Assembly (NCBI GenBank): GCA_029582155.1
Contig: CM055909.1
Location: forward strand, 43,026,967-43,090,966
Direction: 5' to 3'
Length of the DNA stretch: 64,000 nt
From: Panopea generosa
Lineage: Eukaryota > Mollusca > Bivalvia > Adapedonta > Hiatellidae
Part shown: piece after piece, positions 20 through 42,438 of the stretch
How positions within the stretch are numbered: position 1 is the first letter of the stretch
Layout: every line of letters begins with the position of its first letter
Program-made: the position numbers and the translations under genes
The notes under the pieces: generated by a model
The model's input: the letters and a program-made list of their open reading frames with translations, nothing else
Told to the model about the DNA's origin: nothing
The model's database searches: none

Positions 20-2811
20 CGATTTGTACAAATATGTCATGACTTCTTTGCGGTGTAGCCATTCACTGTGCAGATATGTCATGACTTCATTGAGGTGAAG
101 CCATTCACTGTGCGGTGATATGTCATGACTTCATTGCAGTGTAGCCATTAACTGTGCAGATATTTCATGACTTCATTGCGGTGTAGCCATTCACTGTGCA
201 GATATGTCATGACTTCATTGCGGTGTAGCCATTCACTGTGCAGTGATATGTACAGATATGTCATGACTCCTTTGCAGTGTAGCCATTCACTGTGCAATGA
301 TAAGTACAGATATGTCATGACTTCTTTTTCGGTGTAGCCATTCACTGTGCAATGCTATGTACAGATATGTCATCACTTCAATGCGATGTAGCCATTGACT
401 GTGAAGTGTTATGAACAGATATGCCATAACTTCATTGTGGTGAAGCCATTCACTGTGCAGTTATGTCATAACGTCTTTGCGGTGTAGCCATTCACCGTGC
501 AGTGATATGTTCATATATGCCATGACTTCATTGCGGTGTAGCCATTCACTGTGCAATGATATGTACAGATATGTCATGATTTCATTCCGGTGTAGCCATT
601 CAATATGCAGTGATATGTACAGATATGTCATGACTTCATTGCGGTGTAGACATTCACTGTGCATATATGTCATGACTTTATTGCGGTGCATTCATTCACA
701 GTGCAGTGATATGTACAGATATGCAATGACTTCATTACGGTGTAGCAATTCAATGTGCAATAATATTATGTACAGATATGTCATAACTTCATTGCGTTGT
801 AAACATTCACTGTGCTGTGATATATACAGATATGTCATGACTTCATTGCGGTGTAGCCATTCACTGTGCAATGATAAGCACAGAAATGTCATGACTTCAT
901 TGCGGTGTAGCCATTCACTGTTCAGTGATATGTACAGATATGTCATGACTTCATTGCGGTGTAGCCATTCACTGTGCAATGATATGTACAGATATGTCAT
1001 GACTTCATTGCGGTGTAGCCATTCACTGTGCAATGATAAGCACAGAAATGTCATGACTTCATTGCGGTGTAGCCATTCACTGTTCAGTGATATGTACAGA
1101 TATGTCATGACTTCATTGCGGTGTAGCCATTCACTTTGCAATGATATGTACAGATATGTCATGATTTCATTGCGTTGTAGCCATTCACTGTGAAGTGATA
1201 TGTACAGATATGTCATGACTTCACTGCGGTGTAGCCATTCACTGTGCAGTGATAAGTACAGATATGTCATGATTCCATTGCGGTGTAGCCATTCACTGTG
1301 CACTGATAAGTACAGACATGTCAAGACTTCATTGCTGTGTAGCCATTCACTGTGCAATGATATGTACAGATATGACATGACGTCATTGCGGTGTAGCCAT
1401 TCACTGTGCAGGTGATATGTACAGATTTGTCATGACTTCATTGCAGTGTAGCCATTCACTGTTCAGTGATATGTACAGATATGTCATGATTTCATTGCGG
1501 TGTAGCCATTCACTGTGCAATGATAAGTACAGATATGTCATGACTTCATTGCGGTGTAGCCATTCACTGTGCAATGATATGTACAGATATGTCATGATTT
1601 TATTGCGGTGTGACCATTCACTGTGCAATGATATGTACAGATATGTCATGATTTCATTGCGGTTTAGCCATTCACTGTTCAGTGATATGTACCGATATGT
1701 CATGACTTCATTGCGGTGTAGCCATTCACTGTTCAGTGAAATGTACAGATATGTCATGACTTCATTGCGATGTAGCCATTCACTGTGCAATGATATGTAC
1801 ATATATGTCATGACTTCATTGCGGTGTAGCCATTCACTCTGCAGATATGTCATGACTTCATTGCGGTGTAGCCATTCACTCTGCAGATAAGTCATGACTT
1901 CATTGCGGTGAAGCCATTCACTGTGCAGTGATATGTACAGATATGTCGTGACTTCATTGCGGTGTAACCATTCAATGTGCAATAATATGTACAGATATAT
2001 GATGACTTCATTGCGGGGTAGCCGTTCACTGTGCATATATGTCATGACTTCATTGCTGTGTGACCATTCACTGTGCAGTTATATGTACAGATATGTCATG
2101 ATTTCATGGCGGTGTAGCCATTCACTGTGCAATGATAAGTACAGATATATCATGACTTCATTGCGGTGTAGCCATTCACTGTGCAATGATGTGTACAGAT
2201 ATGTCATGATTTCATTGCGGTTTCAACATTCACCGTTCAGTGATATATACAGATATGCCATGACTTCATTGCGGTGTAGCCATTCACTGTTCAGTGATAT
2301 GTACATATATGTCATGACTTCATTGCGATGTAGCCATTCACCGTGCAATGATATGAACATATATGTCATGACTTCATTACGGTGTAACCATTCACTCTGC
2401 AGATATGTCATGACTTCATTGCGATGTAGCCATTCACTGTGCAGTGATATGTACAGATATGTCATGACTTTATTGCGGTGTAGCCTTTCAATGTGCAATA
2501 ATATGTACAGATATATCATGACTTTATTGCGGTGTAGCCATTCACTGTGCAGATATGTCATGACTTCATTGCGATGTGACCATTCACTGTGCAGTGATAT
2601 GTACAGATATGTCATGATTTCATTGCGATGTACCCATTTACTGTGCAATGATAAGTACAGATATGTCATGACTTCATTGCGGTGTAGCCATTTATTGTGC
2701 AATGATATGTACAGATATGTTATGATTTCATTGCGGTATAGCCATTCACTGCGTAATGATATGTACAGATATGTCATGATTTCATTGCGGTGTGACCATT
2801 CACTGCGCACT
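20..2811. repeat. 54-bp minisatellite array 1
   Basis: Tandem array of a roughly 54-bp unit containing TGTACA and GTCATGAC (both palindromes), then CTTCATTGCGGTGTAGCC. Shorter units of about 39 bp lack the stretch around TGTACA. It is the longest of five such arrays and lies left of unit 1. Because 54 is a multiple of 3, long ORFs appear on both strands. I do not treat these as genes. Confidence 0.95.
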
Positions 2812-3248
2812 GAGTTCAAGATATCAAGATTTTTTAGTTTCTCCGGAGAGGTTTAGTGAAACAGAAGTATTGGCTAACTAGATGCTATCATTTATTTTTC
2901 AGCTTTCCTTATTTGGGGTAACACACGTTTTTTGCAAGGAGATTGATAAAAAGTGTAGATTTTCATTCCTTATAGTTTTTTTAGAAGTTATTTTTCTATA
3001 TCTGTTTATAGAAGAAATCACTAAAATGTGACCTGTGGTAAATATATAGCCTAGAAGTGGAAATAAATAAATCGGTTAATAATATAAAGCTGGACTTTAA
3101 ATAATCTGTTGAATACTAGTCCCCTTGTTTTATTTCAGTGTATGTTTAGGTTTGGGCTAAATAACATAGGCAGATATAAATATGACAATCTCGTGAATCT
3201 TGGAATCGTGAACATGTAATACATGCGGGTATAAGTTCAATGCTGCCA

Positions 3249-3415
3249 GGACCGGATAGCTCAGTCCGACCGTTAATCCAGAGTCGTGAGTTCGAATTCC
3301 GCCTCCACAAAGACTCTGTTATGGTTGACCGTGAACTTTGTTCTACGGTCATGAATCTCACAACACTGAATATGTGAGAAGTAGTAACTGCCTTGCAGAG
3401 ATAAGATGTATATAG
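3249..3415 (+). repeat. tRNA-derived SINE (type 1), unit 1 copy
   Basis: Shows a tRNA-like promoter: an A-box-like GATAGCTCAGT and a B-box-like GAGTTCGAATTCCG about 35 bases later, followed by a non-tRNA body shared with 14801, 31871 and 41069. It cannot fold as a complete tRNA. Such RNA polymerase III promoters are the mark of SINEs. Ends are approximate. Confidence 0.65.
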
Positions 3416-3621
3416 TGTTCTAGGAAAGATGCATAGTTGTGCTGACCGCTGTTATATAACTGATATATGTTGGAGTGAACGTCCAGTAAATGAAGTTTCT
3501 TTCTTGTGCATTTATAATCTTATAGCACTCGATCAAAGATAAATGTTTTACGGCACATCGGCACCTAAAGAGAAGATTGATTGAAAAGACTGATTGATTG
3601 AATATTCAACGTCATCTTTAT

Positions 3622-3882
3622 GCTATCGATGGCTAAAAGACAATCAGTTAACCAAGCCACTCTTTCTTGTGATCAAAGAAGGTTACCCAGTGCTCGAACT
3701 CGAGCACATTCATCTGCGTAAGTAACTGATAACGTTCCCACCTGAATCAGCGGTGAGAGACGAATATTAATGGGACACAGTATCATATTTCAATCATCAC
3801 GGAGACTGTTTCCGAGTGGGGATTCGAACTCATGACCCTAAGTGTGATAGCCAGTCGCATTTCTCACTGAGTTGACCGAGAA
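3622..3882 (-). repeat. tRNA-derived SINE (type 2), reverse orientation
   Basis: Read on the minus strand it starts with an A-box-like GTCAACTCAGTGAG, then a B-box GAGTTCGAATCCC, then a body with ATTCGTCTCTCACCGCTGATTC and TGCTCGAGTTCGAGCACTGG, ending TTAGCCATCGATAGC. The same element occurs at 45347-45612 (plus strand, with a better A box) and at 41804-42080. Position and orientation match the copy in unit 5, so it was inserted before duplication. Confidence 0.7.
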
Positions 3883-4347
3883 GACGATACACAAAGATCC
3901 AAACAAAGTATCTGTTGTCATAGTTTGGCCATTTCATTACAAATAACCCTGAAACTTTGCTTAATTATTCTATGCGTCTAATAAATACATTGAACGATCC
4001 AGAATTATCATAAAATAACAATAATAAGACAATACTGAGCAGTTTTCATCAATTTAGCACAGTTTTGAATCATTTTTCGTGTAGTAGAGTACTTCGTAAT
4101 CGCATAAATATTTTATATTATTAACAGAAAACAGTAGATAATTTGGTTTGAACTTTTCTTGTTGACAAAAAATCACTTTTAGAAATAAAAGCTCATGCTT
4201 CGTCATATATATCTAAATATGAAACACACACACACACACACACACATACACACATACACACATACTCACAAAAACAAACAAAAATGAAAATATATGGACA
4301 ACCAGAGACACAGACACCGCACGCACGCACGCACACATACACATACT

Positions 4348-4381
<34 letters not shown>

Positions 4382-5485
4382 CATACATACATACATACAT
4401 ACATACATACATGCATGCGTAGCCCAGTCATGTGTTGAAAATGGTGTTAAACCCAATTAAAATACCATTGCAGACAATGAGGGTGTAACAGGGTGCACAA
4501 TATAATGTAATTAGTTAATTTAAAAAATACAAAAATAAAATAAAAGTTTCTATAACATTTCTTTTATTTATATCATCCTTGAATTATATAAGAACACCTG
4601 CTCGTCGTTATAAATAAGAGTCGACTGTATTGTTCTATTGGTGTTGCTATAATTCACAAAGAAAATGTTAAAACAATAATGACAAAACAATATACGTCCA
4701 CTTACTTGATAGCAAATACATGTAGTATAATTCCTTTGTAATAGTAAGCATTTAACGTCGGTGTTTATTTTCAACTTTAAAGGTACTACCCATGTTCAAT
4801 AATGAATACAGATGGAAGATTATAATTTTTCAACTCGTTTGTCTTTTTTGTTGATATAAACATTGTTATTTTGTTTCGATTGAAAAAAAGTTATCACACC
4901 TTAAACAAATCATGCTCGAGGTCGTCCAAAGTAGAACCATTATTAGGCATCAGCAGATAAAGTAACTTGCTAAATTACACCACCCATAGCCGTAGTGGGG
5001 GGGGGGGTTATATTGTGTTGTTGTTGTTGTTGTTGTTGTTTGTTGTTGTTCTTGTTGTTGTTGTTGTTTTAATATGAATGTCCTCAAACAAGTACGTAAG
5101 AAGATGAACATGGCCTTCCGTACCATTGTGACATATTTAAGCGCATGCGCACACGACTTGCAATACACGTGTCGAGAACATCTGGTTATATTGACGCCTT
5201 TTTAAGTAATATGATTGAGAAATTTGAATATGCGGTCTTAATTTACAGTAAGCTTAACAGATGGACATAACATTACTGTCAATACAAATATGTTCATAAA
5301 TATGTATGTCAGCTACTGCAGATTATATTCTATACAGAGAGCAGACACGTAGGAAATACTATCTATTGATATCGGTTAAGTATCTTAATTCAATATAAGT
5401 GTGGACTTTGAAATATTGTAGATCTACTTTTTTTATTTTAATAAATATTGGTGTAATTTAAATTACAATGGGATGTTAACAATAA

Positions 5486-5830
5486 TAGCCCAGTTGTTAA
5501 AATGATTGTTAAAACTAACATGATCTTCAGTAAACAGTTTGTTTTGAAGCCTTAACAAATTGTTGAATTTGCTGATGTCTTGGAAAATTTTCACGATACT
5601 CTTGGATTTCTAGCTATCCGAACAAGTAAAAAAGGAGGATTGAACGCAGTCTTGGATTTTGTTTAATCTGTATTTGTTAATTTTTACTCAAATTTAACAA
5701 AAACGATTGAAGGTATGTTAACAAAATGTTAAACTTAACATTTTTTTAACAACAGCAAATATACTTACAAATATTACAACATCAAACATCTTTGTTAAAT
5801 ATTAACGTTTTTTAACAACTGAGCCACTAT
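5486..5830. mobile_element. Inverted-repeat element rich in GTTAA, unit 1 copy
   Basis: Begins TAGCCCAGTTGTTAAAA and ends TTTTAACAACTGAGCCACTA, which are imperfect inverted repeats of each other. The interior is full of TGTTAA/TTAACA words on both strands. No coding capacity. Homologous elements sit at the same relative place in units 2 (16937-17340) and 4 (34103-34506). It is a MITE-like non-autonomous element; its family is not known to me. Confidence 0.6.
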
Positions 5831-5925
5831 ATGTTGCAACGCATGTCGTTCAGTGCCGGTTTAAACCCATGTCAGTCAAATATTACAATGATAAAGTATG
5901 TCCACTGAAATTAAATCACCTTATG

Positions 5926-6358
5926 CTATGGAGCGATGTAAAAATCAATGGGAAAGTACCCGCGTCATTTTTGGAGATACATTTCTGAATATAACATGAG
6001 AATACATGAAAAAAAGACGAACGCCGTGTCTGTATAGAGATTTACCATCGATATAAATTGGTAATGAAACACTCGTATTTTATGTTTAAGGTTCAACAGC
6101 GTATTTTGCTCTATTGAAAAAGGTATGGTATAGAACGGTACAATTTACAAAAATACGCCATTGCTTTATTTGAAAAATGAAACGAATGTTTGCATGACCA
6201 CTTGGTAGTACCGATGGTTCATTTCTATGAAGAAATGGTGTTTGTCTTTGTTAGCGGGGTGAATTTTCATGAAATATTATGAAAGCTATTGACAAAAAAT
6301 GTTACCTCCTAATTGTTCACCACTCCATAGCATAATGTCACGAGGGTTCGCCAACGTG
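5926..6358. mobile_element. Inverted-repeat element (TATGCTATGGAG type), unit 1 copy
   Basis: The left arm has TTATGCTATGGAGCGATGT, and the right arm has the inverse (CACTCCATAGCATAATGTCACG). In unit 1 the outer left arm (CACGGTGGCTAACCCACGTGA in units 2 and 4) is missing, so this copy is truncated. No ORF. It is a MITE-like element fixed in the spacer before the units duplicated. Confidence 0.6.
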
Positions 6359-8689
6359 ATAATAACATTTTAAAAACAAGGAAATGTATCTCCAACAGGA
6401 GGATTGCAAGGACACGGTTACCAAGTCAGCTTGTAGTGGACAATATAGAACAATGAAAACAAAACTCATTAAACTAGCTTCAATTTCTGTTGAATTTGAC
6501 CAGACGGATGTGTTACAGTTTTGTCGGATTTTTAATAAATATATTCAAATAATCACGACAAAAAAGAAACTGCAGGCATATTTGTATAAAAAACTGTTAA
6601 CTTAACACCACATTAATGGGAATTTCCGACGTATAGCGTGTGTTATGTAATTCATTTAAGGTAATAATTCAATAGCAATCGTATCAAAATCCATTCTACT
6701 TCTATAACCCATTGTGCCTTCTATGAAAACTTCTAAAATATCAAGGATATCGAACATACAAGATTGTAGATGGTGTGGAGGTGAACATCTAACAGAGCTT
6801 TGAACATCTCGACCCTGGACAATATGGCATATCTGTACATATAATGGCAATCGTATCAAAATGTTATTCTACTTCTATAACCTATTGCGCCTGCTATGAA
6901 AACCTCTAAAATGTAAAGGATATCGAACATACAAGATTTTAGACGGGATGGGGTGGTACATCTAACAGAGCTTTGGACACCATGACCCTAGACAACATGC
7001 TAGTGTTTCTTTTTGTATTCATTTAGTTAGAATTCATTGCACATATCCCTGTATCTATAATATACCATCCTCCGCTGGGAAGTAAGTAACATATGAATTT
7101 GGTTAAACTCTGTTTCAGATATTTCGACCCAGTGGATGAAATACAATTAGAAATTACAGAACGGAACATATATTTTATTTCATATTTGTACATAATACAT
7201 CGTCATTATAACATATTTACAACTCATATTATCACGTCAACTATATCGTTAATACGTACATTATTAGTGCAGTCATATTTCATTACCATTTATATCAATT
7301 TTTTATTAATGTTTTGAATATAAATGTCAAAATAATACAAGGAATACAGAAGAAAGGATGAACACATTTATAATACATTTATATGATTATTATTTATCTT
7401 TGCAAAAAAATATATTTAAAATGTTATTTCTTAATTTCAGAGAACGCTTTATATAATGGGCAAATCCGGAAAAAAAGTTTTGTCATTTGATTTAAGCAAT
7501 GCATTAAGCTTTATGAAATATTTTGCGGTGGAAATCCTTCTTTTATATAGCACAAAGAACAAAATTCAACTGTGCAGTGAGACCCATAATGATGCACATA
7601 CTGATAACCACTGCAGTGCGTATTTAGTGGGGGGGGGGGGGGGGGTAAATAAAAAGCCCTTTTAGGACACATTATCAGAAACTTCATTGGCGATCCGCTT
7701 GAAGTAGGTTTCTCAAGTAAAGTACAATTCAATATTACCGGAAATACATCCATCATGTTTATCTGTAGAGCATGATAAACTGACTGTTTAACGACAAATT
7801 ACATCAAGTGACTAATACGTGAATGCGATGGGTATGTAGCGGTGCATTCATGGTTTTAATGAATATTCGACAATTATGTTTCAAAGATGCATTACCTATG
7901 TAAATGATGGAAAGTTTATTGAATCACAAAGAGGAAGATTCTATTTGAAGATAATGGTTGTTTCCGTCCTTGTAGTTTACCTAATTTATGAGAAAATTAT
8001 CGGCGATATAGGTGAGGCCTCTTTCAAAACACAACTGCAAATTACATATCTTCTACTTTGATGTCATTATTGCTAAAACAATACATATAATATTACAAAC
8101 AGAGATAAAGGTGAGGATTGTCGTCTGCAATTTCTAATTCCAAAATAACCTTCAACATCCGGATGTGAAAAATAAAGTCAATTGTGATATCAAATGAGGT
8201 TCGTCATTCGGGTTAACATTGAGATAATAATAACAGGTTGCAGAATATGCATTTTGTATAAGGAGATTCCTACAAAACTCACATTGAGATAATGTGTATT
8301 TGATATATCATAAGTTTATTTAAAGAACAGATTTCAACAGCAAGATATATCGTTAAATGCACGATTTCGACAGTAAATTAAGTAACTTTGAACCAGAATT
8401 CGATAGTTCAAAATTCGCGATGGTTCGAAAAATAAACACGGTCCGGTGGATTCCAAACAAACGCGAAATCACTGTAGTACTCCGTTTATGGCTTCATTTA
8501 ATGGTCACTAAACGTTGGTATTTTCTTTTCCTCGTTACAATCACTGCTTCGTACGAATCGTTTTATCATTTATCTATTTTCAATGCAGACATTTCAGTTT
8601 TCAAAGCATATTAGACACGTTCACATACATAATGTATTCCACATTTCACGGATGAAATTAATTTACAGGATGTACATTGTGATGTGATG
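6359..8689. other. Spacer of unit 1, right part (A-type block), no supportable gene
   Basis: Short ORFs here (for example near 7093 and 7876) match short ORFs in the same place in unit 3. They carry frameshifts, lack any recognisable domain and are AT-rich, so I do not call genes. The block 7450-8060, with a G run at 7628-7645, defines the A type: it is nearly identical to 24950-25560 and is absent from units 2 and 4. Sequence near 6650-6960 contains a diverged internal duplication (ATCGTATCAAAATG, CCATTG). Confidence 0.6.
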
Positions 8690-8830
8690 CTAAGAGCGAG
8701 GATCACTGGTAAAGCATCTGTTCCAAGATCGGTGGGGGCGGCTTCGATCCTTCCTCCGCTACGGCTGTGTGTGGTTTCCTTAAGCAAGATACTCTTGCTG
8801 TATATCCTAAAGTATGTGTTCTACCCAGGC
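8690..8830 (+). repeat. tRNA-like SINE (type 3), unit 1 copy
   Basis: Has a tRNA-like head with ACTGGTAAAGCATCTG and a B-box-like GGCTTCGATCCTTCC, followed by GGCTGTGTGTGGTTTCCTTA. Copies occur at 19850 (unit 2) and 26180 (unit 3). None is found before the CACGTG array of unit 4. Identification as a SINE is by promoter form only. Confidence 0.5.
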
Positions 8831-8924
8831 AGACTTAGCGACTTTTAAATAATACTCCACTGTGTTTGCGTTGCCATAAAATATTTAATGTACACGTTAC
8901 TTTAAATCAAAATTTACCTTTCTC

Positions 8925-9930
8925 ATATTTGTCACAATATACCACCACGTGGTTAATACATATCATATCTGTCACAATATAACACCACGTGGCTAATACA
9001 TATCTTATGTATCACAATATACCACCACGTGGCTAATACATCTCATATTTCTCACAATATACCACCACGTGAATAATACCTATCATATATATGACAATAA
9101 TCCACCATGTGGCTAATACATATCATATTTGTCACAATATACCGCCACGTGATTAATACATTTCACATATATAACAATATACCACCACGTGGCTAATACA
9201 TATCATATTTGTCACAATATACCACCACGTGGCTAATACATATCATATTTGACACAATACACCACCACGTAGTTAATACATATCATATGTATCACAATAT
9301 ACCACCACCTGGTAAGTACATATCACATGTATCACAATATATCACCACGTGATTAATACCTATCATATTTGTCACAATATACCACCACGTGGTTAGTACA
9401 TATCATATGTGTCACAATATACCACCACGTGGTTAATATATATCATATGTGTCACAATATACCACCATGTGGTTAATATCTAATATGCTCCTTTGAACAT
9501 CAAATATTGTGACTTTATTTTACGATAACTCTGCATATACTATCGATGTACATGTGATTTTAAATAAAGATATACCTTTGTCATATTTGTCACAATATAC
9601 CACCACGTGGTTAATACATATCATATGTGTCACAATATACCACCACGTGGTTAATACATATCATATTTGTCACAGTATAACACCACGTGGTAAATACATA
9701 TCTTATGTATCGAAATATACCACCACGTGGTTAATACATATCATATGTGTCAAAATATACAACCACGTAGATAATACATATCATATGTGTCACAATATAC
9801 CTCCACGTGGTTAGTACATATCATATTTGTCACAATATACCACCATATGCACAATATACCACCACGTAGTTAGTTCATATCATATCTGTCACAATATACC
9901 ACCACGTGGTTAATACCTATCAAGCTCCTT
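8925..9930. repeat. 40-bp minisatellite with CACGTG E-boxes, array 1
   Basis: Tandem units of 40 bp: CCACCACGTGGTTAATAC followed by ATATCATATNTGTCACAATATA. The array is broken once, near 9490-9570, by an AT-rich stretch. Most units keep the palindrome CACGTG; I count 16 by eye. It begins about 235 bp beyond the 3' end of lectin copy 1. CACGTG is the core site for bHLH factors such as USF, MYC and CLOCK. Any regulatory role here is inference. Confidence 0.9.
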
Positions 9931-10164: not shown

Positions 10165-11053
10165 CTACACATATTCACAAACAAATGATTATTTATCTGT
10201 ACATAGCCTTCCGTACCATATCCACCCCTTGGAAAACTGATTGACAATACAAGTATCAGATGTTTGAGGTTCGCCAGATACCCAGTTAGAGAAAAGATGA
10301 TTGAGACGCTCCATATGTGTACGTCCACGGCGAGGACGAATCATCGCGTTCTCCATCTATCCATACGTCTGATGTCACGCTCAAACTATTTAAAGTAGAG
10401 GCCACGTCATTTGATTTCTCTTGTGAGTTTATATTCACCAGATGTCCATGGTGTTTTTGACATTCTGTTTCCGCGGCTGATTTTGCCATAGTTGTACTAA
10501 CATACTTCAAACAGAAGCCACTGGGAGTCAGTATATAACCGCTTGAACATGAATTGCCTTCACATACGTCCGACTCTGATTCCATCAACGATTTATTCCG
10601 CGATTCTTGGTTGCATATGGTTGAATTAGATTTGCAGTTCCTTGAACGTGAACGTATTCCATAATGCGTCAGTAGGCTTGTGGAGCATGTCGACCACTCA
10701 GACCATTTTGTACATGGGTGTAGAGCACACATGTCTTTCTTCCTCTCTGTTTCCAATTGTTCAAGGCTATTTTTCAGTGTTTCATTTATAATGCTTTGCA
10801 TTTCTGCTTTTAACGCCGCCGTTTTATCATCCAGCTTCACGGACACAGCATCTTTTATTTCAGTGTCCATATTCATCAGTATTTTTCCAATGAGTCGTAA
10901 CGCAGGCTTACCAGTCAACTTTCCAATATTCTGTAAATATTTGCCGTCCAACTTTCCGTTGTCGTTAACTTTGACGTCACTTATTGGAATACACCGTGAT
11001 GTTTGTAGAATGAAAGAAGCAATGACGAACCGCCTTACTATTATCCAAGCCAT
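10165..11053 (-). pseudogene. TSP1/C-type lectin, copy 1, frameshifted
   Basis: Homologue of the three intact lectin genes of this window, read from ATG at 11053. It is open through signal peptide, neck, thrombospondin domain and the first half of the lectin domain. One extra A in a run at 10292-10295 (GAAAAG where the other copies have GAAAG) then shifts the frame. Translation ends at 10286, just after residue 250, before the NW..GEP loop and the last three cysteines. The downstream part is still readable in the shifted frame and would end one codon earlier than in the other copies, at 10165. The product lacks the ligand-binding half of the lectin fold. It could be a sequencing error, but copy 1 is also the most diverged copy. 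It keeps Cys181 as in copy 3. Confidence 0.85.
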
Positions 11054-13554: not shown

Positions 13555-13747
13555 GAGTTCAAGTTATTATTTATAGATATCAAGATTTTTGAGTAGAGGA
13601 AAATCTCTTAAGATGTTTTGCGTAACAGAGATATTAGCTAACTTGATGGCAATGGTAATGCTATCATTTATAAACTAACACACTTTAATTGTTACGAGAA
13701 GAGACATCAATAGCGTAGATTTTTCTTTATCAGTATAAAATACTAAA
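13555..13747. other. Start of unit 2 spacer
   Basis: Sequence right of the minisatellite, shared with 30612-30815 and 39805-40010. AT-rich; nothing recognised. Confidence 0.6.
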
Positions 13748-14800: not shown

Positions 14801-14970
14801 GACCGGATAGCTCAGTACTACCGTCAGTCTAGAGTCGTGAGTTCGAATCCCGCCTGTACAATGTCTATGTTATGGTTGGCCATGAACTTTGTTCTACGGT
14901 CACGAATCTTCCACTACTGAATATGTGAGAAGTAGTCAGTGCCTTGCAGAGATAAGATGTATATAGTATT
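14801..14970 (+). repeat. tRNA-derived SINE (type 1), unit 2 copy
   Basis: GATAGCTCAGTACTACC (A-box-like), then GAGTTCGAATCCCGCC (B-box). Its body has TTATGGTTGGCCATGAAC and GCCTTGCAGAGATAAG. Same element and place as in units 1, 4 and 5. Confidence 0.65.
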
Positions 14971-16082: not shown

Positions 16083-16083
<1 letters not shown>

Positions 16084-16170: not shown

Positions 16171-16172
<2 letters not shown>

Positions 16173-29411: not shown

Positions 29412-30611
29412 TAATATGTACAGATATGTCATGACTTCATTGCGGTGTAGCCATTTACTGTGCAATGATATGTACAGATATGTCATGACTTCATTGTTGT
29501 GTAGCCATTTACTGTGCAATGGTATGTACAGATATGTCATGACTTCATTGCGGTGTGACCATTCGCTGTGCAATGATACGTACATATATTTCATCACTTC
29601 ATTGCGGTGTAGCCATTCACTGTGCAATGATATGTATAGATATGTCATGACTTCATTTCGATATAGCCATCAACTGTGCAGTGATATGTACAGATATGTC
29701 ACAGATATGTCATGACTTCATTGCGGTGTAGCCATTCACTGTCCAATGGTATGTACAGATATGTTATCAATTCATTGCTGTGTGGCCATTGACTGTGCAA
29801 TGATATGTGGAGATATGTCATGACTTCATTGCGGTGTAGCCATTTACTGCGCAATGATATGTACAGATATGTCATGACTTCATTGCGGTGTAGCCATTTA
29901 CTGTACAATGATATGTACAGATATGTCATTACATCATTGTGGTGTGGCCATTCGCTATGCAATGATACGTACATATGTGTCATGACTTCATTGCGGTGTA
30001 GCCATCCACTGTGCAATGATATGTACAGATATGTCATGACTTCATTGCGGTGTAGTCATTCACTGTCCAATGATATGTACAGATATGTCATAAATTCATT
30101 GCTGTGTAGCCATTCACTGTGCAATGCTATGTACAGATATGTCATAACTTCATTGCAGTTCAACCATTCGTTGTGCAATGATATGTATAGATATATCATG
30201 ACTTCATTACGGTGTAGCCATTCACTTTGCTATGATATGTACAAATATGTCATGACTTCATTGCGGTGTAGCCATCCACTGTGCTATGATATGTACAGAT
30301 ATGTCATGACTTCATTGCGGTGTAGCCATTCACTATGGTATGATATGTACAGATATGTCATGACTTCATTGCGGTATAGCCATTCACTGTGCTATGATAT
30401 GTACAGATATGTCATGATTTGATTGCGTCGTAGCCATTCACTATGCAATGATATGTATAGGTATGTCATGACTTCATTTCGATATAGCCATCCACTGTGC
30501 AATGATGTGTACAGATATGTCATGACTTCATTGCTGTGTAGCCATTCACTGTGCAATGATATGTACAGATATGTCATAACTTCATTGCAGTTCAGTCATT
30601 CGTTGTGCCAT
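29412..30611. repeat. 54-bp minisatellite array 4
   Basis: Same 54-bp family, about 22 units. It begins after TTATTCTTTATTAATATG and ends at TGTGCCATGAGTTCAA. It lies between the 5' flank of lectin copy 3 and the spacer of unit 4. Near 29700 a partial unit is repeated (TGTCACAGATATGTC), a local slippage event. Confidence 0.95.
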
Positions 30612-30814
30612 GAGTTCAATTTATTATTTATAGAGATTTTTAAGTAGAGGAAAATCTCTTAAGATGTTTTGCGAAACAGAGATATTAGCTAACTAGATGG
30701 CAATGGTAATGTTATTATTTGTAAATTAACACACTTTAATTGTTACGAGAAGAGACATCAATAGCGTAGATTTTTCTTTAACAGTATATATAAAAAATAC
30801 TAAAATACTAAATG

Positions 30815-31295
30815 TGGCAACCCTTAGTGTAATAAAACCCTTAGTGTAACAATTATTACACTTAGTGCAATACAATCAATGTTTTACAATTGTTACACTA
30901 AGTGTTATAATATCCATTTGTGTTTTGTTACACTAAAGTTGGAGGTGTCAACCCTTAGAGTAACAATGGTTACACTAAGCGTAGTTATTTTTATCAAATA
31001 AAAATGTATTTATTTCCGCTTTGAAAAAGGGGTATATATTGTTACCCTTGTTTGTCCATCCGCAAACATGAATGGGTAGTTAAGTGTCAATGGGACAGGG
31101 TAAATAATTTTCTTTCAACGGTTAAAAGCAATTGAAAAAAATATGTGGATGTTTCTAGACACTTAAAACAACTTTTATGTGACTTCAACCCTTGGTGTAA
31201 CAAAATGGATTTGATGTGGAAATGATCTGGTGAAGAAAATCTAATACAAGGAATAGTTATATTTTTGTTACACTAAGGGTTATTTATGACCGCAA
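30815..31295. mobile_element. TTACACT-rich inverted-repeat element, unit 4 copy
   Basis: Same element as 13748-14232. This copy keeps more exact CCCTTAGTGTAA words (for example near 30826 and 30838), so it is closer to the original. Confidence 0.55.
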
Positions 31296-31870
31296 CCATT
31301 AATGACATTGACCTTGACCCGAAAGTCGTGAAACGCAAACGCATCCAGAGTATCACTGTTCTGGACATCAGTGTAAATTACATTAAAGGGGAGATAATGC
31401 TGGTTAGCGTTGACAAAATATTCTGTAACTAAAGTTTTTGTTGAACAAAGAGTTGCAGCAGACGTGTGATATATATATATATATATATAACATAGAAGAG
31501 GGGGAAAATAAATTGGTATATATTTTAAAGCATTCTTTAATTTGCTTTTTGCGAGTAGAGATATAAAAGGTGTAGATTTTCATTCCTTGTGGTTTTTTTA
31601 GAAGTTATTTTCTATATGAGTATATAGAAGAAATCACTAAAATGTGACCTGTGGTAAATATATAACCTAGAAGTGGAAATAAATAAATCGGTATATAATA
31701 TAAAGCTGGACTTTAAATAATCTATTAAGTTGGATATTAGTCCCCTTGTTTTATTACAGTGTATGTTTAGGTTTGGGCTAAATGACATAGGCAGATATAA
31801 ATATGACAATCTCGTGAATCTTGGAATCGTGAACATGTAATACATGCGGGCGTAAGTTCAATGCTGTCGG

Positions 31871-32040
31871 GACCGGATAACTCAGTACTACCGTCAGTCT
31901 AGATTCGTGAGTTCGAATCCCGCCTGTACAATGTCTATGTTATGGTTGGCCATGAACTTTGTTCTACGGTCACGAATCTTCCACTACTGAATATGTGAGA
32001 AGTAGTCAGTGCCTTGCAGAGATAAGATGTATATAGTATT
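31871..32040 (+). repeat. tRNA-derived SINE (type 1), unit 4 copy
   Basis: Same as 14801-14970, with A box changed to GATAACTCAG and B box GAGTTCGAATCCC kept. Confidence 0.65.
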
Positions 32041-32329
32041 GGTTATCTGCCTAACGTATTCTAGGGAAGATGCATAGGTGCGCTGACCGCTGTTATATTA
32101 CTGATACATGGGGGTGGGTGGATCAGGCACAAACCAAACAAACAGTGAGTCAGTTATAAAACTGGAATACAATTATAACAGGATATAATCAATCATGTTA
32201 ACATATACATTAGGTATACAAACTATCTTGTGAAATATTAAAATAGTTTAACCACTCTGTCCGTATCACTTGACATTTCTTCACCAATTTTCAGTTTGTA
32301 TGGGTTTTTTTTTTCAAGAAAATAATTAA

Positions 32330-32400
32330 AGAATGATGTGATTCAAACTCATGACCCCAAGAGTGATAGCCAGACGCACCTCCCACTGAGAAGATGATAC
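32330..32400 (-). repeat. Fragment of type 2 SINE, unit 4
   Basis: Same remnant as in unit 2, with a further loss of the A-box bases (CCCACTGAGAAG instead of CCCACTGAGTTTACCGAG). Confidence 0.5.
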
Positions 32401-33218
32401 ACAAGGATCCAAATAAACTCTCCTGTCATATTTTGGCCATTTTATTTCAAATAACCCTGAAACTTGGCTTACTTATTCAATGCATCTAAAATGCATCTAA
32501 AACAATACATCGAACGATCCAGAATTATCATAACATAACAATAATAAGACGATATTGAGTAAAATATGCATATAACATCGGTCTAGCAAATGATGAGGTT
32601 CGCGGTAAATCGCAATTTTCATCATTTCAGCATAGTTTTGAATAATTTTACGTGTAGTAGAGCATTTATACAACAGTTACTTAGAAATCGCATAAATATT
32701 TATTAAGAGAAAAAGTTGATAATTTGGTTTGAACTTTGCTTGTTGACAAAAAATCGCTTTTAGAAATAAAAGCTCACGCCTTGTCATATATAGCTAAATA
32801 TGAAATACATAATTTAATATAGAATCGACTTTAGCTAACGTTTGCAAACATTTAACCGAATTGAACGCAGCCCTTTTATGTGCTAAAAATGGTGTAAAGA
32901 CCCAATTTTAAAAGTATCACTGCAGACACTAACGTTTTCAAACCAATTTCGGCACATTCAATACAGATGATGGATTTAACATTTTTCATTTTTTTGTATT
33001 TTTGTTGATGTAAACATACTTTCGGTTGAGAAAAAAGTTATCACACCTTAGACAATTAAGGTCGATGTCGTCCTGAGTAGAACCAGTACTAAACATATGA
33101 GGCTAAATGATACCACACATAGTCGTAGAGGAGGCTCTATTGTGTTGTTGTTGTTTTTGTTGTTGTTGTTTTCACATCAGGATTTACGTATAATGTATAA
33201 CTATTACGTATCATGAAC

Positions 33219-33411
33219 GTATTGATTTCAAACTATCTGAAATAGAGACCACGTCGTTTTCCTATTCTTTAAAGTTTATATTCACCAGGTGTCCTTGATC
33301 TTTTTGACATTCTGCTTCAGCAGCTGACTTTGTCATCTATATACTATCATACTTCAAACAGAAACCACCGGAAGTCAATTTATAGCGGCCTGGGCATGCG
33401 TTACCTTCACA
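33219..33411 (-). pseudogene. Relic C-type lectin fragment, unit 4
   Basis: Counterpart of 16219-16411 with the same limits and the same in-frame stop after HLVNINFKE. Small differences include GCGTTACC against GCGCTACC. It codes for no usable protein. It marks a dead lectin lineage carried along with the duplicated unit. Confidence 0.8.
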
Positions 33412-33424
33412 GTAAAGCATTACA

Positions 33425-34055
33425 GTATCCGTTTATTTTTTTTATTTTTATGCCTGCAAAAAAATTGGGGTGGCATATATATTTTGCAGCCACTGTCCGT
33501 CCGTCTGTCTGTCAGTCAGTACTTCCGTCCAGTATTTCGTGTCCGGCCTGTATCTTTGTCATGCTTAGATGGATTTTGTTAATACTTGCCACAAATGATC
33601 AACATAACATGACGACTTGTCGCGTGTAAGACCTACACCCGTACCTCAAAGGTAAAGGTCACAATTCGAGTTTGGTTGACAACACTTTGAGTCTGTTAGA
33701 TTTCGTGTCCGGTCTGTAACTTTGTCATGCATAGATGGATTTTGTTAATACTTGCCACAAATGATCAACATAACATGACGACTTGTCGCGTGTAAGACCT
33801 ACACCCGTACCTCAAAGGTAAAGGTCACAATTCGAGTTTGGTTGACAACACTTTGAGTCTGTTAGATTTCGTTTCCGGTCTGTAACTTTGTCATGCATAG
33901 ATGAATTTTGTTAATACTTGCCACAAATGATCAACATAACATGACGACTTGTCGCGTGTAAGACCGTCACCCGTACCTCAATGGTTAAGGTCACAATTTG
34001 AGTTTGTTTGACAACACTTTGAGTTTGTGTGAGATTTCATGTCCGAAAATTATTT
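33425..34055. repeat. Dispersed mollusc-type repeat with about 135-bp internal units, unit 4 copy
   Basis: As at 16435-16890, but with three internal units (near 33540, 33700 and 33865). One extra unit has been gained here or lost in unit 2. Confidence 0.6.
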
Positions 34056-34102
34056 TAAAAAATATTAGTGTTATTCAAATAACAATGGGATATTAACAAT
34101 AA

Positions 34103-34506
34103 TAGCCCAGTTGTTCAAATGATTGTTAAAATTAACATGATCTTGAGTTAACAATTTGTTTTAAAGCCATAACAAATTGTTAACTAACATTTTGTTCAAC
34201 TTGCTGTTTTCATGGAAATTTATGTTTTCATGATACATTCGTGGATTTCTATCTATCCGAGCAAGTAAAAAAGAAGGAATGAACGCTGTCTTTGATTTTG
34301 TTAAATCTGTGTTATTTTTTTATTTAAATGTAACACAAAAAAATGAAGATATGAACAATTTAACAACATTCAAAAAAATGTTGAACTTTAACATTTTTTA
34401 ACAACAGCAAACATGCTTACAATATGCTACGAAAGTATTAAACAAATCAATTATCATCGAAAATCTTTGTTAAATATTAACATTATTTAAACAACTGAGC
34501 CGCTAT
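34103..34506. mobile_element. Inverted-repeat element rich in GTTAA, unit 4 copy
   Basis: Same ends and interior as 16937-17340. Confidence 0.6.
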
Positions 34507-34600
34507 ATGTTGTAACGCATGTCGTTCAGTGCCGGTTTAAACATATGTCAGTCAGATATCATAATTATAAATATGTCAACTGAAAAGAAATCAATTTAAT

Positions 34601-35049
34601 CACGGTGGCTAACCCACGTGACCTAATGCTTTGGAGCGGTGTAAAAAATCAAAGTAAAAGTACCCGCGTCATTTTTGGAGATAAATTTCTGAATATTACA
34701 TGAAAATACACGAAACGTAGACGAACGCCGTCTCTGTATAGAGATTTACCATCGATATAAATTGGTTATGAAATACTCGCATTTTTTGTTTAAGGTTCAA
34801 CAGCGTATTTTGCTCTGCTGAAAAGATTATGGTATAGAACGGTACAATTTACAAAAATAGGCCATTGCTCTATTTGGGGAAAAAAAGAATGTTTGCATGA
34901 CCACTTGATAGTACCGATGGTTCATTTCTATGTTGTCTTTGTTAGCCGGGTGACTTTTCATGAAATATTATGAAAGCTATTGACAATAAATGTTACCTCC
35001 TATTTCTTCACCACTCCATAGCATTATGTCACGTGGGTTCGCCAACGTG
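34601..35049. mobile_element. Inverted-repeat element (TATGCTATGGAG type), unit 4 copy
   Basis: CACGGTGGCTAACCCACGTG at the left. The right arm, read inverted, starts CACGTTGGCGAACCCACGTG. Full length, as in unit 2. Confidence 0.7.
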
Positions 35050-36384
35050 ATAATAACATTTTAAAAATAAGGAAATGTATCTCCAACAGGAGCATTGCAA
35101 GGACACGGTTACTAGGTCAGCTGTTGTGGTCAAAGCAGAACAATGAAAACAAAACTCATTATAGCTTCGACTTCTGTTGAATTTCTGTTGAATTTGACCA
35201 GACGGCTGTGTTACAGTTTTGTCGGATTTTTAATAAATAAATTCAAATCATCACGACAAAAAAGAAACTGCAGGCCTATTTGTATAAAGAACTGTAACCT
35301 TAACACAACATTAATGGGAATTTCCGACGTATAGCATATGTTATGTAATTCATTTATGGTTATAATTCAATGGCAATCGTATCAAAATGTCATTTACTTC
35401 TATAACCCATTGTGCCTTATATGAAAACTTCTCAAATATCAAGGATATCGAACATACAATATTGTACACCGGATGGGGGTGTACATCTAACAGAGCTTTA
35501 GACATCTCGGCCCTGGACAACATTCTAGTGTTTCTTTTCGTATTCATTTTGTTAGAATTCAGTACACATATCCATGTATCTATAATATACCATCCTCCGC
35601 TGGGAAATAAGTAACACATGAATTTGGTTAAACTCTATTCAATAATTTCGATCCAGTGGATGAAATACAAAATTACAAGAAATTACAGAACGGAACTTAA
35701 TATATTTTATTTCATATTAAATTTTTGTACATCAATACATCGTCATTATAACATATTTACAACTCAAAATATCACGTCATCTATATCGTTAATAGGTACA
35801 TCATCAGTACCGTCAAATTTCATTACCATATATATCAAATATTTATTAATGTTTTAAATATATATGTCAAAATGATATAAGAAATTCTTTTCAAGAAGAA
35901 GAAGTGGATGAACATATTTATTAAACATTTAAATGATAATTATTATTTCATTGTCAAATATATATTTAAATTTCACATTAAACATTCAAATTTTTATTTC
36001 TTAATTTCAGAGAACGTTTTATATAATATTGGATTTTTGACATCTGGTTTAATTGATAAAAAATATGTACACTTGATCTATGAAATTTCAGCTTTCGTTA
36101 AAGCTTTGTTTTTAGTATAGTAACGCAGTTTTTTGTTAACAGCGCCCCTAGTGGTTTTCGCTGTTTTTCATTATAAAAGGTTCATTATTAATTGAAAAAT
36201 GTTTTTACTAACAGTTTTAAATTACTTATTTCATTTTCTGTGATAATATTGTAACTTTAATACACACAAAAAGCAAAATTTATCTAATCATTTCGCCGGA
36301 GTTGATTAAAACGCGGGTGCGGGTTTAAAAAAACAAATTTTGTGAATATTCGCGCAGGTCTCTTTAAAACACAACTGCAAATAA
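35050..36384. other. Spacer of unit 4, right part (B-type block), no supportable gene
   Basis: Follows unit 2 (17883-19200). Short ORFs near 35387 and 35618 differ in frame from their counterparts. The stretch equivalent to 19200-20075 of unit 2 (type 3 SINE) is absent. Confidence 0.6.
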
Positions 36385-36612
36385 CACCCCGACGTGGCTA
36401 ATACATGTCCTATTTGTCACAATATACCACTACGTGGCTTATACATGCCATATGTGTCACAATATACCACCACGTTGCTGATACATGTCATATGTGTCAT
36501 AATATACCACCACCTGGTTAATATATATCATGTGTATCACAATAGACCACCACGTGGTTAATATCTATCATATGTGTCACAATATACCACCACGTGGTTA
36601 ATACCTATCAAG
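36385..36612. repeat. 40-bp minisatellite with CACGTG E-boxes, array 4 (short)
   Basis: Only about six units. By my count two retain CACGTG (near 36550 and 36590); the rest are GACGTGG, TACGTGG, CACGTTG or CACCTGG. Confidence 0.85.
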
Positions 36613-36837: not shown

Positions 36838-37728
36838 TTAATACACATATTCACAAACAAATGTGTATTTAGTTGTACATGACCTTCCGTACCATATCCA
36901 CCCATTGGAAAACTGATTGACAATACAAGTATCAGAAGATCCAGGCTCGCCAGATTTCCAGTTAGAGAAAGATGATTGAGACGCTCCATATGTGTACGTC
37001 CACGGTGAGGACGAGTCATCGCGTTCTCCATCTATCCATACGTCCAATGCCACGCTCAAACTATTTAAAGTAGAGGCCACGTCATTTGATTTCTCTTGGG
37101 AGTTTATATTCACCAGATGTCCATGGTGTTTTTGACATTCTGTTTCCGCGGCTGATTTTGCCATAGTTGTACTAACATACTTCAAATAGAAGCCACTGGG
37201 AGTCAGTATATAACCACTTGAACATGGATTGCCTTCACATACGTCCGATTCTGATTCCTTCAACGATATATTCCGCGATTCTTGGTTGCAAATGTTTGAA
37301 TTAGATGTACAGTTCCTTGAACGTGAGCGTATTCCATAACGAGCCACTAGGGTGGTAGAGCATGTCGACCACATAGACCATTCTGTACATGGGTGTAGAG
37401 CACACATGTCTTTCTTCCTCTCTGTTTCCAATTGTTCAAGGCTATTGTTCAGCGTTTCATTTATAATGCTTTGCATTTCTGCTTTTAACGCCGTCACTGT
37501 ATCATCCAGCTTCACGGACGCAGCATCTTTTATTTCAGTGTCCATATTCATCAGTATTTTCCCAATGAGTCGTAATGCAGGCTTATCTGCCAACTTTCCA
37601 ATATTCTGTAAATATCTAGCGTCCAACTTTCCGTTTTCGTCAACTTTGGCGTCACTTATTGGAATACACCGTGATGTTTGTAGAAAGAAAGAAGCAATGA
37701 CGACCCGCCTAAGTATTATCCAAGCCAT
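36838..37728 (-). CDS. Secreted TSP1/C-type lectin protein, copy 4
   Basis: Intact 296-residue ORF with signal peptide, neck, TSP1 and C-type lectin domain. It shares NISLKE, NPC and GFYLKY (Tyr181) with copy 2, and DTVTAL and EWSMWSTC with copy 3. Its binding loop is the most different: SNWKSGEPGSSDTC, so EPG replaces EPQ, with a Lys before SGEP. Then comes GWIWYGRSCTTKYTF. Substitutions are concentrated in the segment that in other C-type lectins contacts ligand and calcium, while the scaffold is nearly unchanged. Loss of Cys181 leaves an odd number of cysteines after signal removal, which could allow an inter-chain bond or destabilise the fold. Confidence 0.88.
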   Translation of the reverse strand: MAWIILRRVVIASFFLQTSRCIPISDAKVDENGKLDARYLQNIGKLADKPALRLIGKILMNMDTEIKDAASVKLDDTVTALKAEMQSIINETLNNSLEQLETERKKDMCALHPCTEWSMWSTCSTTLVARYGIRSRSRNCTSNSNICNQESRNISLKESESDVCEGNPCSSGYILTPSGFYLKYVSTTMAKSAAETECQKHHGHLVNINSQEKSNDVASTLNSLSVALDVWIDGERDDSSSPWTYTYGASQSSFSNWKSGEPGSSDTCIVNQFSNGWIWYGRSCTTKYTFVCEYVY

Positions 37729-38667: not shown

Positions 38668-39804
38668 TATGATATATACAGATATGCCATAAATTCATTG
38701 CTGTGTAGCCATTCACTGTGCTATGATATGTAGAAATATGTCATGATTTCATTGCGGTGTCGCCATTTACTGTGCAATGATATGTACAGATATGTCATAA
38801 CTTCATTGTGGTGTAGACATTTAACGTGCAATGATACGTACAGATATGTCATGATTTCATTGCGGTGTAGCCATTCACTGTGCAATGATACGTACAGATA
38901 TTTCATGACTTCATTGCGGTGTAGCCATTCACTGTGCTATGATACGTACAGATATATCATGACTTCATTGCGGTGTAGCCATTTACAGTGCAATGATATT
39001 TACAGATATGTCATGACTTCATTGCGGTGTAGCCATTTACAGTGCAATGATATGTACAGATATGTCATGACTTCATTGCGGTGTAGCCATTCACTGTGCT
39101 ATGATATGTACATATATGTCATGACTTCATTGTGGTGTAGCCATTCACTGTGCAATGATATTTACAGTTATGTCATGACTTCATTGCGGTGTAGCCATTC
39201 ACTGTGCAATGATATGTAGAGATATGTCATGACTTCATTGCGGTGTAGCCATTTACAGTGCAAAGGTATGTACAGATATGTCATGACTTCATTGCAGTGT
39301 AGCCATTTACTTTGCAATGATATGTACAGATATGTCATGACTTCATAGTGGTATAGTCATTCACTGTGCAATGATATGTACAGTTATGTCATGACTTCAT
39401 TGCGATGTAGCCATTCACTGTGCAATGATATGTAGAAATATGTCATGACTTCATTGTGGTGTAGCCATTTACAGTGGAATGATATGTACAGATATGTCAT
39501 GACTTCATTGCGGTGTAGCCATTTACTGTGCAATGATATGTACAGATATGTCATGACTTCATTGTTGTGTAGCCATTCACTGTGCAATGATATTTACAGT
39601 TATGTCATGACTTCATTGCGGTGTAGCCATTCACTGTGCAATGATATGTAGAGATATGTCATGACTTCATTGCGGTGTAGCCATTTACAGTGCAATGATA
39701 TGTACAGATTTGTCATGACTTCATTGCGGTGTAGCCATTCAGTGTGCTATGATATGTACAGATATGTCATGACTTCATTGCAGTGTAGTCATTCACTGTG
39801 CAAT
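38668..39804. repeat. 54-bp minisatellite array 5
   Basis: Same 54-bp family, about 21 units. Its left junction is unlike the others: the lectin 5' flank is cut at GGAGTATGTTA, and the array starts directly with TGATATATACAG. About 250 bp of flank plus the usual leader are therefore missing. Its right end matches array 2. Confidence 0.95.
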
Positions 39805-40011
39805 GAGTTCAAGTTATTATTTATAGATATCAAGATTTTTGAGTAGAGGAAAATCTCTTCAGATGTTTTGCGAAACAGTGATATTAGCTAACTAGATGGC
39901 AATGGTAATGCTATTATTTATAAATTAACACACTTTAATTGTTACGAGAAGAGACATCAATAGCGTAGATTTTTCTTTATCAGTATATATAAAAATACTA
40001 AAATACTAAAT

Positions 40012-40492
40012 GTTGCAACCCTAAGTGTAATAAAATCCTTAGTGAAACAATTATTACACTTAGTGCAATACAATCAATGTTTTACAATTGTTACACTAAG
40101 TGTAATAATATCCATTTGGGTTTTGTTACACTAAAGTTTGAGGTGTCAACCCTTAGAGTAACAATGGTTACAGTAAACGTAGTTATTTTTATCAAATAAA
40201 AATTATTTATTTCCGCTTTGAAAATAGGGGTATATATTGTTACCCTTGTTCGTCCGTCCGCATACACGAATAGGTAGTGAAGTGTCTATGGTTCAGGGTT
40301 AATAATTTTCTTTGGACGGTTAAAAGTAATAAAAAAAATATGTGGATGTTTCTAGACACTTAAAACAACTTCTATATGACTTCAACCCTTGGTGTAACAA
40401 AATGGATTTGATGTGGAAATGATCTGGTGAAAAAATCTGATACAAGGAATAGTTATATTTTTGTTACACTAAGGGTTATTTAAGACTGCAAC
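40012..40492. mobile_element. TTACACT-rich inverted-repeat element, unit 5 copy
   Basis: Same element as 13748-14232, with ends GCAACCCTAAGTGTAAT and TTACACTAAGGGTTA...CTGCAACC. Confidence 0.55.
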
Positions 40493-41068
40493 CATTAATG
40501 ACATTGACTTTGACCCGAAAGTCGTGAAACGCAAACGCATCCAGAGTATCACTGTTCCGGTCATCAGTGTAAATTACATTAGAGGGGAGATAATGCTGGT
40601 TAGCGTTGACAAAATATTCTGTAACTAAAGTTTTTGTTGAACAAAGAGTTGCAGCAGACGTGTGATATATATATATATACATAACATAGAAGAGGGGGGA
40701 AATAAATTGGTATATATTATAAAGCATTCTTTAATTTGCTTTTTGCGAGTAGAGATATAAAAAGTGTAGATTTTCATTCCTTGTGTTTTTTTAAGAAGTT
40801 ATTTTCTATATGAGTATATAGAAGAAATCACTAAAATGTGACCTGTGGTAAATATATATATAACCTAGAAGTGGAAATAAATAAATCGGTATATATTATA
40901 AAGCTGGACTTTAAATAATCTATTAAGTTGAATATTAGTCCCCTTGTTTTATTACAGTGTATGTTTAGGTTTGGGCTAAATAACATAGGCAGTTATAAAT
41001 ATGACAATCTCGTGAAGCTTGGAATCGTGAACATGTAATACATGCGGGTGTAAGTTCAATGCTGTCGG

Positions 41069-41236
41069 GACCGGATAGCTCAGTACTACCGTCAATCTAG
41101 AGTCGTGAGTTCGAATCCCGTCTGTACAATGTCTATGTTATGGTTGGCCATGAACTTTGTTCTACGGTCACGAATCTTCCACCACTTAATATGTGAGAAA
41201 TAGTCAGTGTCTTGCAGATAAGATGTATATAGTATT
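41069..41236 (+). repeat. tRNA-derived SINE (type 1), unit 5 copy
   Basis: GATAGCTCAGTACTACC and GAGTTCGAATCCCG, same body as the other copies. A local G-rich stretch (GGGGGAGGTGGGGG) follows near 41312. Confidence 0.65.
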
Positions 41237-41803
41237 GGTTATCTGCCTAACGTATTCTAGGGAAGATGCATAGGTGCGCTGACCGCTGTTATATGACTGA
41301 TATATGTTAGGGATGGGGGAGGTGGGGGTGGGGGAGGGGGATCAGGCACAAACCAAACAAACAATGAGTCAGTTATAAAACTGGAATACAATTATAACAG
41401 GATATAATCAATCATGTTAACATATACATAAGGTATACAAACTATCTTGTGAAATATTAAAATAGTTTAACCACTCTGTCCGTATCACTTGTCATATTTT
41501 TCTCCTATTTTGAGTTTTTATGGGTTTTTTTCAAGAAACCATTTAAAGAATGATGTGTATATGTTTAACGTCAATGCATTATGTTGATCACGTGATGAGT
41601 AAGTGCACACGAGAGGGTCCCATAAAATGTTCTCGATTCATTTAAGTTTACATCGCGTGAACGTCCTGCAAATGAAGTTTCTTTCTTGTGCATTTATAAT
41701 ATTATAGCACACGATCAAAGATAAATGTTTTACGGCACATCAGCGCCTAAAGAGAAGATTGATTGAAAAGACTGATTGATTGAATATTCAACATCATCTT
41801 TAT

Positions 41804-42080
41804 GCTATCGATGGCTAAAAGAATATCAATTAAACATGCCACTCTCTTCTGTGATCCTATAAGGTTACTCAGTACTCGAGCACATTCATCTCCGCATGTA
41901 TCTGCCCCCCCCCCCCCCACCCCCCCCCCCCCCCCCTCCACTGAATCAGCGGTGAGAGACGAATATAAATGGGACACAATGTCGTATTTCAATCACCACG
42001 GATACTGTTTCCGGTGGGGATTCGAACTCATAAATCCTAGAGTGATAGTCAGACGCACAACACACTGAGCTTACCCAGAA
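41804..42080 (-). repeat. tRNA-derived SINE (type 2), unit 5 copy, with C-run expansion
   Basis: Minus-strand SINE equivalent to 3622-3882 (GGGATTCGAACTCATA as inverted B box; CGGTGAGAGACGAATA in the body). A run of C, broken by one A, sits at 41904-41937 inside it. The tract is not in the unit 1 copy. Confidence 0.65.
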
Positions 42081-42438
42081 GGTTACACAAGGAACCTAAC
42101 AAAGTGTCTCCTGCCATTTCCTGGCCATTTCATTACAAATAACCCTGAAGCTTGGCTTACTTATTAAATGCGTCTCAAAATATTAACTTGTCGATTCAGA
42201 ATTACGATAACAGCAAAAATAACGAGACGTGACATGATAAACTTGTATATAATACTTGATAGTAAGAATGTAAAACCGGTGCATGCAGACCCTATATGTC
42301 TATGTTCCTCGTCTTAACAATGCGAATGAATGTTGACACATTCCGATTATTTTTTTTTCGTTCTATTTCTCAAAAAGATACAATACGAGCAGAAAGCAAT
42401 AAACAAATAAGAATGCAAAAAAAACCAAAGAACATGGA

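Follow-up and report, generated by a model that had tools for sequence, protein, structure and literature searches.

Head-to-tail duplicated C-type lectin-like genes in minisatellite-rich units of the bivalve Panopea generosa

We analyzed a 64,000-nucleotide stretch of the genome of the bivalve Panopea generosa (assembly GCA_029582155.1, contig CM055909.1, positions 43,026,967 to 43,090,966), hereafter the window, a single sequence on which all results below are based. The window contains a tandemly expanded family of lectin genes arranged in head-to-tail units rich in minisatellites. According to the explanation that we consider likely as a whole, a unit of ~9−12 kb, comprising a relic-bearing spacer and the flanked lectin gene, with a 54-bp minisatellite upstream of the gene and a 40-bp one downstream, would have been duplicated head to tail. 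Unequal crossing over and gene conversion would then have swapped sequence between its copies, as their mosaic patterns suggest, and the copies would have come to differ by lost pieces; both the duplication and the losses can be read directly from the alignments. The minisatellites would mainly be passengers copied with the unit, which also offer points of misalignment and breakage, and the product would be a secreted lectin-like protein.

Self-comparison of the window with the arrays masked revealed four units of ~12.3, 10.4, 6.7 and 9.3 kb, all in the same orientation, and a partial fifth one. Along the plus strand, each unit starts with a 54-bp array, continues with a spacer, a 40-bp array and a lectin gene on the minus strand, and ends with upstream sequence (~1.2 kb; 0.94 kb in unit 4) that leads to the next 54-bp array. 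Altogether, five 54-bp arrays and four 40-bp arrays with a CACGTG core are present in the window, and each of the four lectin copies has a 54-bp array on its 5′ side and a 40-bp array on its 3′ side. A 32-base stretch of the 54-bp repeat occurs 117 times with at most three mismatches, as opposed to 0 occurrences in 100 shuffles. The left end of the cluster lies outside the view, the window starting at, next to or inside the first array. At the other end, unit homology stops at ~42252, within a spacer and 2.4 kb beyond the last 54-bp array; an unrelated 42/81-bp array begins ~180 bp further on. Long open reading frames (ORFs) within the 54-bp arrays were considered as genes and rejected, because the repeat period corresponds to 18 codons and is open on both strands. 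A first-pass annotation, made from the sequence alone, had proposed a tandem lectin cluster with units of 6.7−12.3 kb and an E-box minisatellite on the 3′ side of each gene. The unit lengths and the head-to-tail periodicity are borne out by the masked self-comparison, the E-box minisatellites correspond to the four 40-bp CACGTG arrays, and the arrays, the Pfam domain and the self-comparison agree on a tandemly expanded lectin gene family. The same annotation counted four lectin genes in one orientation; there are indeed four minus-strand copies, but only three are intact, g1 being a pseudogene with a frameshift and a premature stop.

Features of the lectin cluster, in positions of the window
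Feature	Positions	Strand	Remarks
54-bp array A1	20..2835		~50 copies; 56 units cut by wrap-around alignment
Spacer S1	2836..8922		~7201-8600 like S3 at 90-98.5% (200-base tiles)
Possible relic in S1, C-terminal part of second lectin domain	5087..5185	-	tblastn, weak, E 0.037
40-bp CACGTG minisatellite E1	8923..9904
Lectin pseudogene g1	10168..11053	-	frame intact for ~252-254 codons, then frameshift; rest with premature stop
54-bp array A2	12314..13556		~23 copies
Spacer S2	13557..20081		left 4 kb like S4 at 88-100% (200-base tiles)
Diverged lectin domain relic in S2	16229..16411	-	61% amino acid identity to g4, one in-frame stop
40-bp array E2	20082..20405		~8 copies
Lectin gene g2	20639..21529	-	intact, 296 amino acids, single open reading frame
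54-bp array A3	22757..24066		~24 copies
Short spacer S3	24067..26313
40-bp array E3	26314..27066		~18 copies
Lectin gene g3	27306..28196	-	intact, 296 amino acids
54-bp array A4	29414..30613		~22 copies
Spacer S4	30614..36391
Diverged lectin domain relic in S4	33229..33411	-	62% amino acid identity to g4, two in-frame stops
40-bp array E4	36392..36604		~5 copies
Lectin gene g4	36838..37728	-	intact, 296 amino acids
54-bp array A5	38669..39806		~21 copies
Partial fifth unit, spacer S5 only, without gene	39807..42252

The identity of the predicted proteins was assessed by profile and sequence searches. The C-type lectin family (PF00059) matched all three full ORFs with E-values of 6e−12 to 1e−10 and the broken g1 copy with 5e−6; the intact proteins scored 42.8−46.7 bits against a cut-off of 22.6 and covered positions 5−106 of the 107 in the profile. 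A sequence search against the PDB returned 29 matches at E ≤ 0.01, the best of which is the type II antifreeze protein of the sea raven, which we take to have a C-type lectin fold. On the strength of these matches the predicted C-type lectin domain is secure, and three of the four copies have an ORF of 296 residues. The other domain named in the first-pass annotation, TSP1 (PF00090), fared less well. At E ≤ 0.001 it was reported for one of the four proteins (20639−21529; E = 6e−4), with 20.4 bits and below the Pfam cut-off of 21.6, and one ORF matched (0.0099) in a scan of 101 ORFs from which this protein was absent. The stretch WSxWSxCS..RxRxC of the lectin protein resembles the TSP1 motif and may work like one. 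The N-terminus, judged by eye, is hydrophobic. The product probably is secreted and combines a TSP1-like stretch with a C-type lectin-like domain.

Calcium-dependent sugar binding by C-type lectins relies on the motifs EPN or QPD, and WND. Reading the intact proteins by eye, we found EPQ or EPG at residues 261−263 in all three; none of them has WND within its last 42 residues. These changes speak against canonical sugar binding and not against the lectin fold; the proteins probably do not bind sugar via the usual calcium site. Further searches retrieved no relatives: a search of a large protein database gave 749 candidates with none at E 1e−3, NCBIfam gave 0 matches for two proteins, and in viral contigs a protein search yielded 473 pattern matches without a relative and a repeat search yielded 0.

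A TATA-like motif precedes the ATG in all four copies (by 82 bases, 70 in g3) and AATAAA signals follow the stop in all of them, which is consistent with a one-exon gene. For pairs among g2, g3 and g4, the ratio of nonsynonymous to synonymous substitution rates (dN/dS) is 0.29−0.60 and suggests constraint on the protein. The differences between copies are unevenly placed. Eleven of the 26 nonsynonymous variable codons in the three intact genes fall within the last 42 codons, together with 2 synonymous ones; the split between nonsynonymous and synonymous changes along the protein is not significant, as 171 of 2000 permutations do as well. Considered alone, the nonsynonymous codons give a stronger signal: 10 of them lie within a single stretch of 30 codons, a length chosen by us, and this is reached by 18 of 5000 random placements. 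The ligand-side half, in a division of the protein that we chose ourselves, differs most among the copies, which suggests that the ligand side has diversified.

The most likely, putative function is that many slightly differing copies would together recognize microbes. The proteins might instead act in the shell matrix, in mucus or in adhesion and not in immunity, which we regard as possible, though clearly the less probable of the two roles. Judged by title, part of the literature that joins C-type lectin, TSP1, mollusc and tandem concerns shell, skeleton or adhesion, whereas tandem copies with changes concentrated in the ligand-side half fit recognition better, if weakly.

To reconstruct the history of the units, we compared their parts separately. 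All six pairs of the gene block (gene with 5′ and 3′ flank) match at 92.0−94.7% over 2.1−2.4 kb in the masked self-comparison and at 94.1−96.2% in global alignment, gaps not counted. Spacers match at up to 95.8% over 2.5 kb in the self-comparison, and their pairing differs from that of the genes. S2 goes with S4, at 88−100% over the left 4 kb and 80−95% further right (200-base tiles), and part of S1 goes with S3, at 90−98.5% over ~1.4 kb. The remainder of S1, outside ~7201−8600, is mostly 70−95% like S2/S4; switches of relationship and unalignable stretches occur among the spacers. In the gene block, 41 sites divide the copies 2:2 and are split 16:13:12 over the three possible trees, along with 131 singletons. 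Under a star tree without exchange, 500 simulations produced on average 1.2 sites of the 2:2 type and at most 5. Because no single tree fits the 41 informative sites, the copies have very probably exchanged sequence. Unequal crossing over together with gene conversion is the ordinary explanation that would fit such mosaic copies. Judging from the mosaic copies and from the losses specific to single units, the unit is one that has been reshuffled.

Part of this pattern could also arise in assembly, if two divergent haplotypes, one with units 1−2 and the other with units 3−4, had been joined end to end. The alternation of spacer types, with S1 partly like S3 and S2 like S4, is what two alleles of a two-unit locus would give. 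The genes, however, pair otherwise (coding sequence identity is 0.941 for g1−g3 and 0.959 for g2−g4, versus 0.964 for g2−g3), S2 and S4 fall to 80−95% in the right part of the spacer, and the unit lengths are unequal, making such joining improbable. Duplication with subsequent exchange accounts better for these data, and several observations weigh against it in turn. The gene of unit 1 is broken, so not all copies have been kept. Coding sequences are no more conserved than flanks (for g2, g3 and g4, 0.959−0.964 and 0.955−0.964 in the 5′ flank), so that constraint is visible in dN/dS only. Adjacent sites with equal tree patterns cluster only mildly, 309 of 10000 shuffles reaching the observed level. 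A structure prediction from four near-identical sequences was too poor to use (mean predicted local distance difference test score, pLDDT, 36.5). Finally, since a single assembled sequence is at hand, a false duplication by assembly is conceivable, if again improbable.

The first-pass annotation had further described each unit as framed by 54-bp arrays and had viewed the repeats as the packaging of an expandable cassette. Arrays do lie on both sides of the genes, but tandem copying of a unit with one array automatically yields that arrangement, and framing alone therefore proves nothing. Moreover, because homology runs on past the last 54-bp array, the original duplication appears not to have stopped at an array of this kind, unless the copy was shortened afterwards. 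The CACGTG core was considered as a specially conserved element of the 40-bp repeat and rejected: conservation is 0.83−1.00 at the core positions and 0.60−1.00 at the others, in 54 of 61 repeat units. The data do not show that the gene is packaged by minisatellites: the arrays belong to what was copied, the last copy ends in a spacer, and the core is not set apart.

The possible role of the arrays in breakage was considered through the lost pieces. In close comparisons (S2−S4, S1−S3 and the six gene-block pairs), all four losses of at least 40 bp, tandem-copy changes aside, abut an array edge on one side. These are the losses in S3 beside A3 (~4.4 kb when compared with S2, 3.6 kb with S1) and beside E3 (~0.1 kb), the loss in S4 beside E4 (~0.87 kb relative to S2), and 265−288 bp missing from the gene-side flank of G4 beside A5 relative to G2 and G3. 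If ends fall at random and arrays occupy 19% of the sequence, four out of four would be expected with a probability of ~0.011, in a test chosen post hoc. Set aside in this count were S1−S2, S1−S4 and S2−S3, which have large unalignable parts and many uninterpretable gaps, as well as S5. Also set aside were three tandem-copy gaps of at least 40 bp (a 60-bp TGT run and one 166-bp repeat in S2−S4, and a 172-bp duplication in S1−S3) and an absence of 0.8−0.9 kb in S1 near A1, where the array-side flank is kept and the loss does not end at the array. A 56-bp gap that separated G1 from the other copies is an artefact of the way in which the blocks were delimited. In addition, the units are collinear within A2 and A5 for eight repeats beside similar spacers and not beyond, which may reflect exchange inside the array or faster array turnover.

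These two observations would fit minisatellites acting as active borders, at which breaks or exchange start and by which the intervening gene behaves as a cassette in copying, conversion or deletion. On the other hand, only four events enter the post hoc test, the visible cluster end lies in a spacer and not at a 54-bp array, relationships of genes and spacers also switch within spacers and flanks, and no special conservation marks the CACGTG core. We therefore consider active borders rather unlikely. An elaborated version seems to us unlikely as well, in which the two minisatellites form paired borders of breakage and exchange: deletions and conversions starting in the arrays would homogenise and reshuffle the lectin gene between them, its ligand-side loops would diversify, and the spacers would diverge. 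Minisatellites carried along as passengers of the duplicated unit remain the explanation that we favor.

The spacers preserve traces of an older state of the unit. The diverged lectin domains in S2 and S4 (E-values of 6e−17 and 8e−17) are copies of one another, and with such relics in its spacers the ancestral unit probably also held an older lectin copy. Spacers furthermore contain a 166-bp tandem repeat, present ~2 times in unit 2 (16534−16879) and 3 times in unit 4 (33534−34045), and an imperfect palindrome of ~450 bp (17434−17884, also 5918−6338 and 34599−35051). In S2 the palindrome has 49-nt arms that are 82% complementary and its end is ~40 bp away from the inner limit of the segment absent in unit 3. 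The palindrome is possibly an old mobile element.

That a transposable element carries the units seems very improbable to us. Apart from the palindromes (e.g. 17434−17884), it is favored by a few spacer fragments that resemble sequence outside the cluster, at 45.4−45.6 and 50.5−50.9 kb. Yet no transposase, reverse transcriptase or helicase family was found in 101 scanned ORFs of at least 60 codons, a scan that shorter decayed pieces would escape, and all units in the window are arranged head to tail.

The same Pfam scan served to look for other genes. It covered 101 of the 141 ORFs of at least 60 codons, in a list without ORFs lying mostly in arrays; the other 40, located to the left of position 42.3 kb, largely represent overlapping frames or further copies from other units. 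Apart from the lectin and TSP1 families, the scan gave four weak matches (E = 0.0029−0.0094), which we take as chance, and right of 42.3 kb no convincing protein family was found among the ORFs scanned. Rfam and tRNA scans gave 0 matches. Unrelated minisatellites are located outside the cluster at 42431−43016, 45876−46217, 53088−53837 and 56257−58048, with periods of 42/81, 71, ~5/92 and 24 bp, respectively.

Among the matches listed in the open-access literature, this very unit is not described. To our knowledge, the protein encoded by the Sp185/333 (SpTransformer) genes of the purple sea urchin is unrelated to the lectin protein of the window. As far as the published account of it goes, the Sp185/333 cluster is nevertheless the closest described case, in which repeats flank the genes and bound the duplications (PMC5103432). 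Both systems comprise clustered, similar genes of immune type, mosaic genes and deletions inferred beside repeats. They differ in that the sea urchin repeats are described as microsatellites (GA, GAT), in contrast to 54- and 40-bp minisatellites here, and in that the sea urchin genes have two exons and occur in both orientations, whereas those of P. generosa are single ORFs in one orientation. A single pseudogene is reported in that account (PMC5103432), compared with one broken copy out of four and lectin relics in spacers here. In P. generosa all four copies have tandem repeats on either side; as to repeats at the ends of duplicated segments, the last copy ends in a spacer ~2.4 kb past the 54-bp array, perhaps having been cut later.

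Among bivalves, 62% of the Eastern oyster's C1q-domain genes are described as tandem duplicates, with unequal crossing over given as the cause (PMC6835236). Like the window genes, they are lectin-like and tandemly copied, mostly on one strand in the cluster described, but they have a different domain, and the main text of that report contains neither the word minisatellite nor the word repeat. C-type lectins, the domain family common to the window genes, are reported to have undergone large expansions in bivalves (PMC10140915); the main text of this report does not contain the words thrombospondin, intron or exon, and tandem occurs in its reference list only. The reshuffling and partial loss of copies would have proceeded much as in other invertebrate immune gene clusters. 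As now supported, the P. generosa cluster adds to the cases in which lectin genes have expanded in tandem with repeat-rich spacers between them. Should breakage really occur at the array edges, it would offer a compact natural illustration of how minisatellites drive copy-number change in an animal family of lectins.

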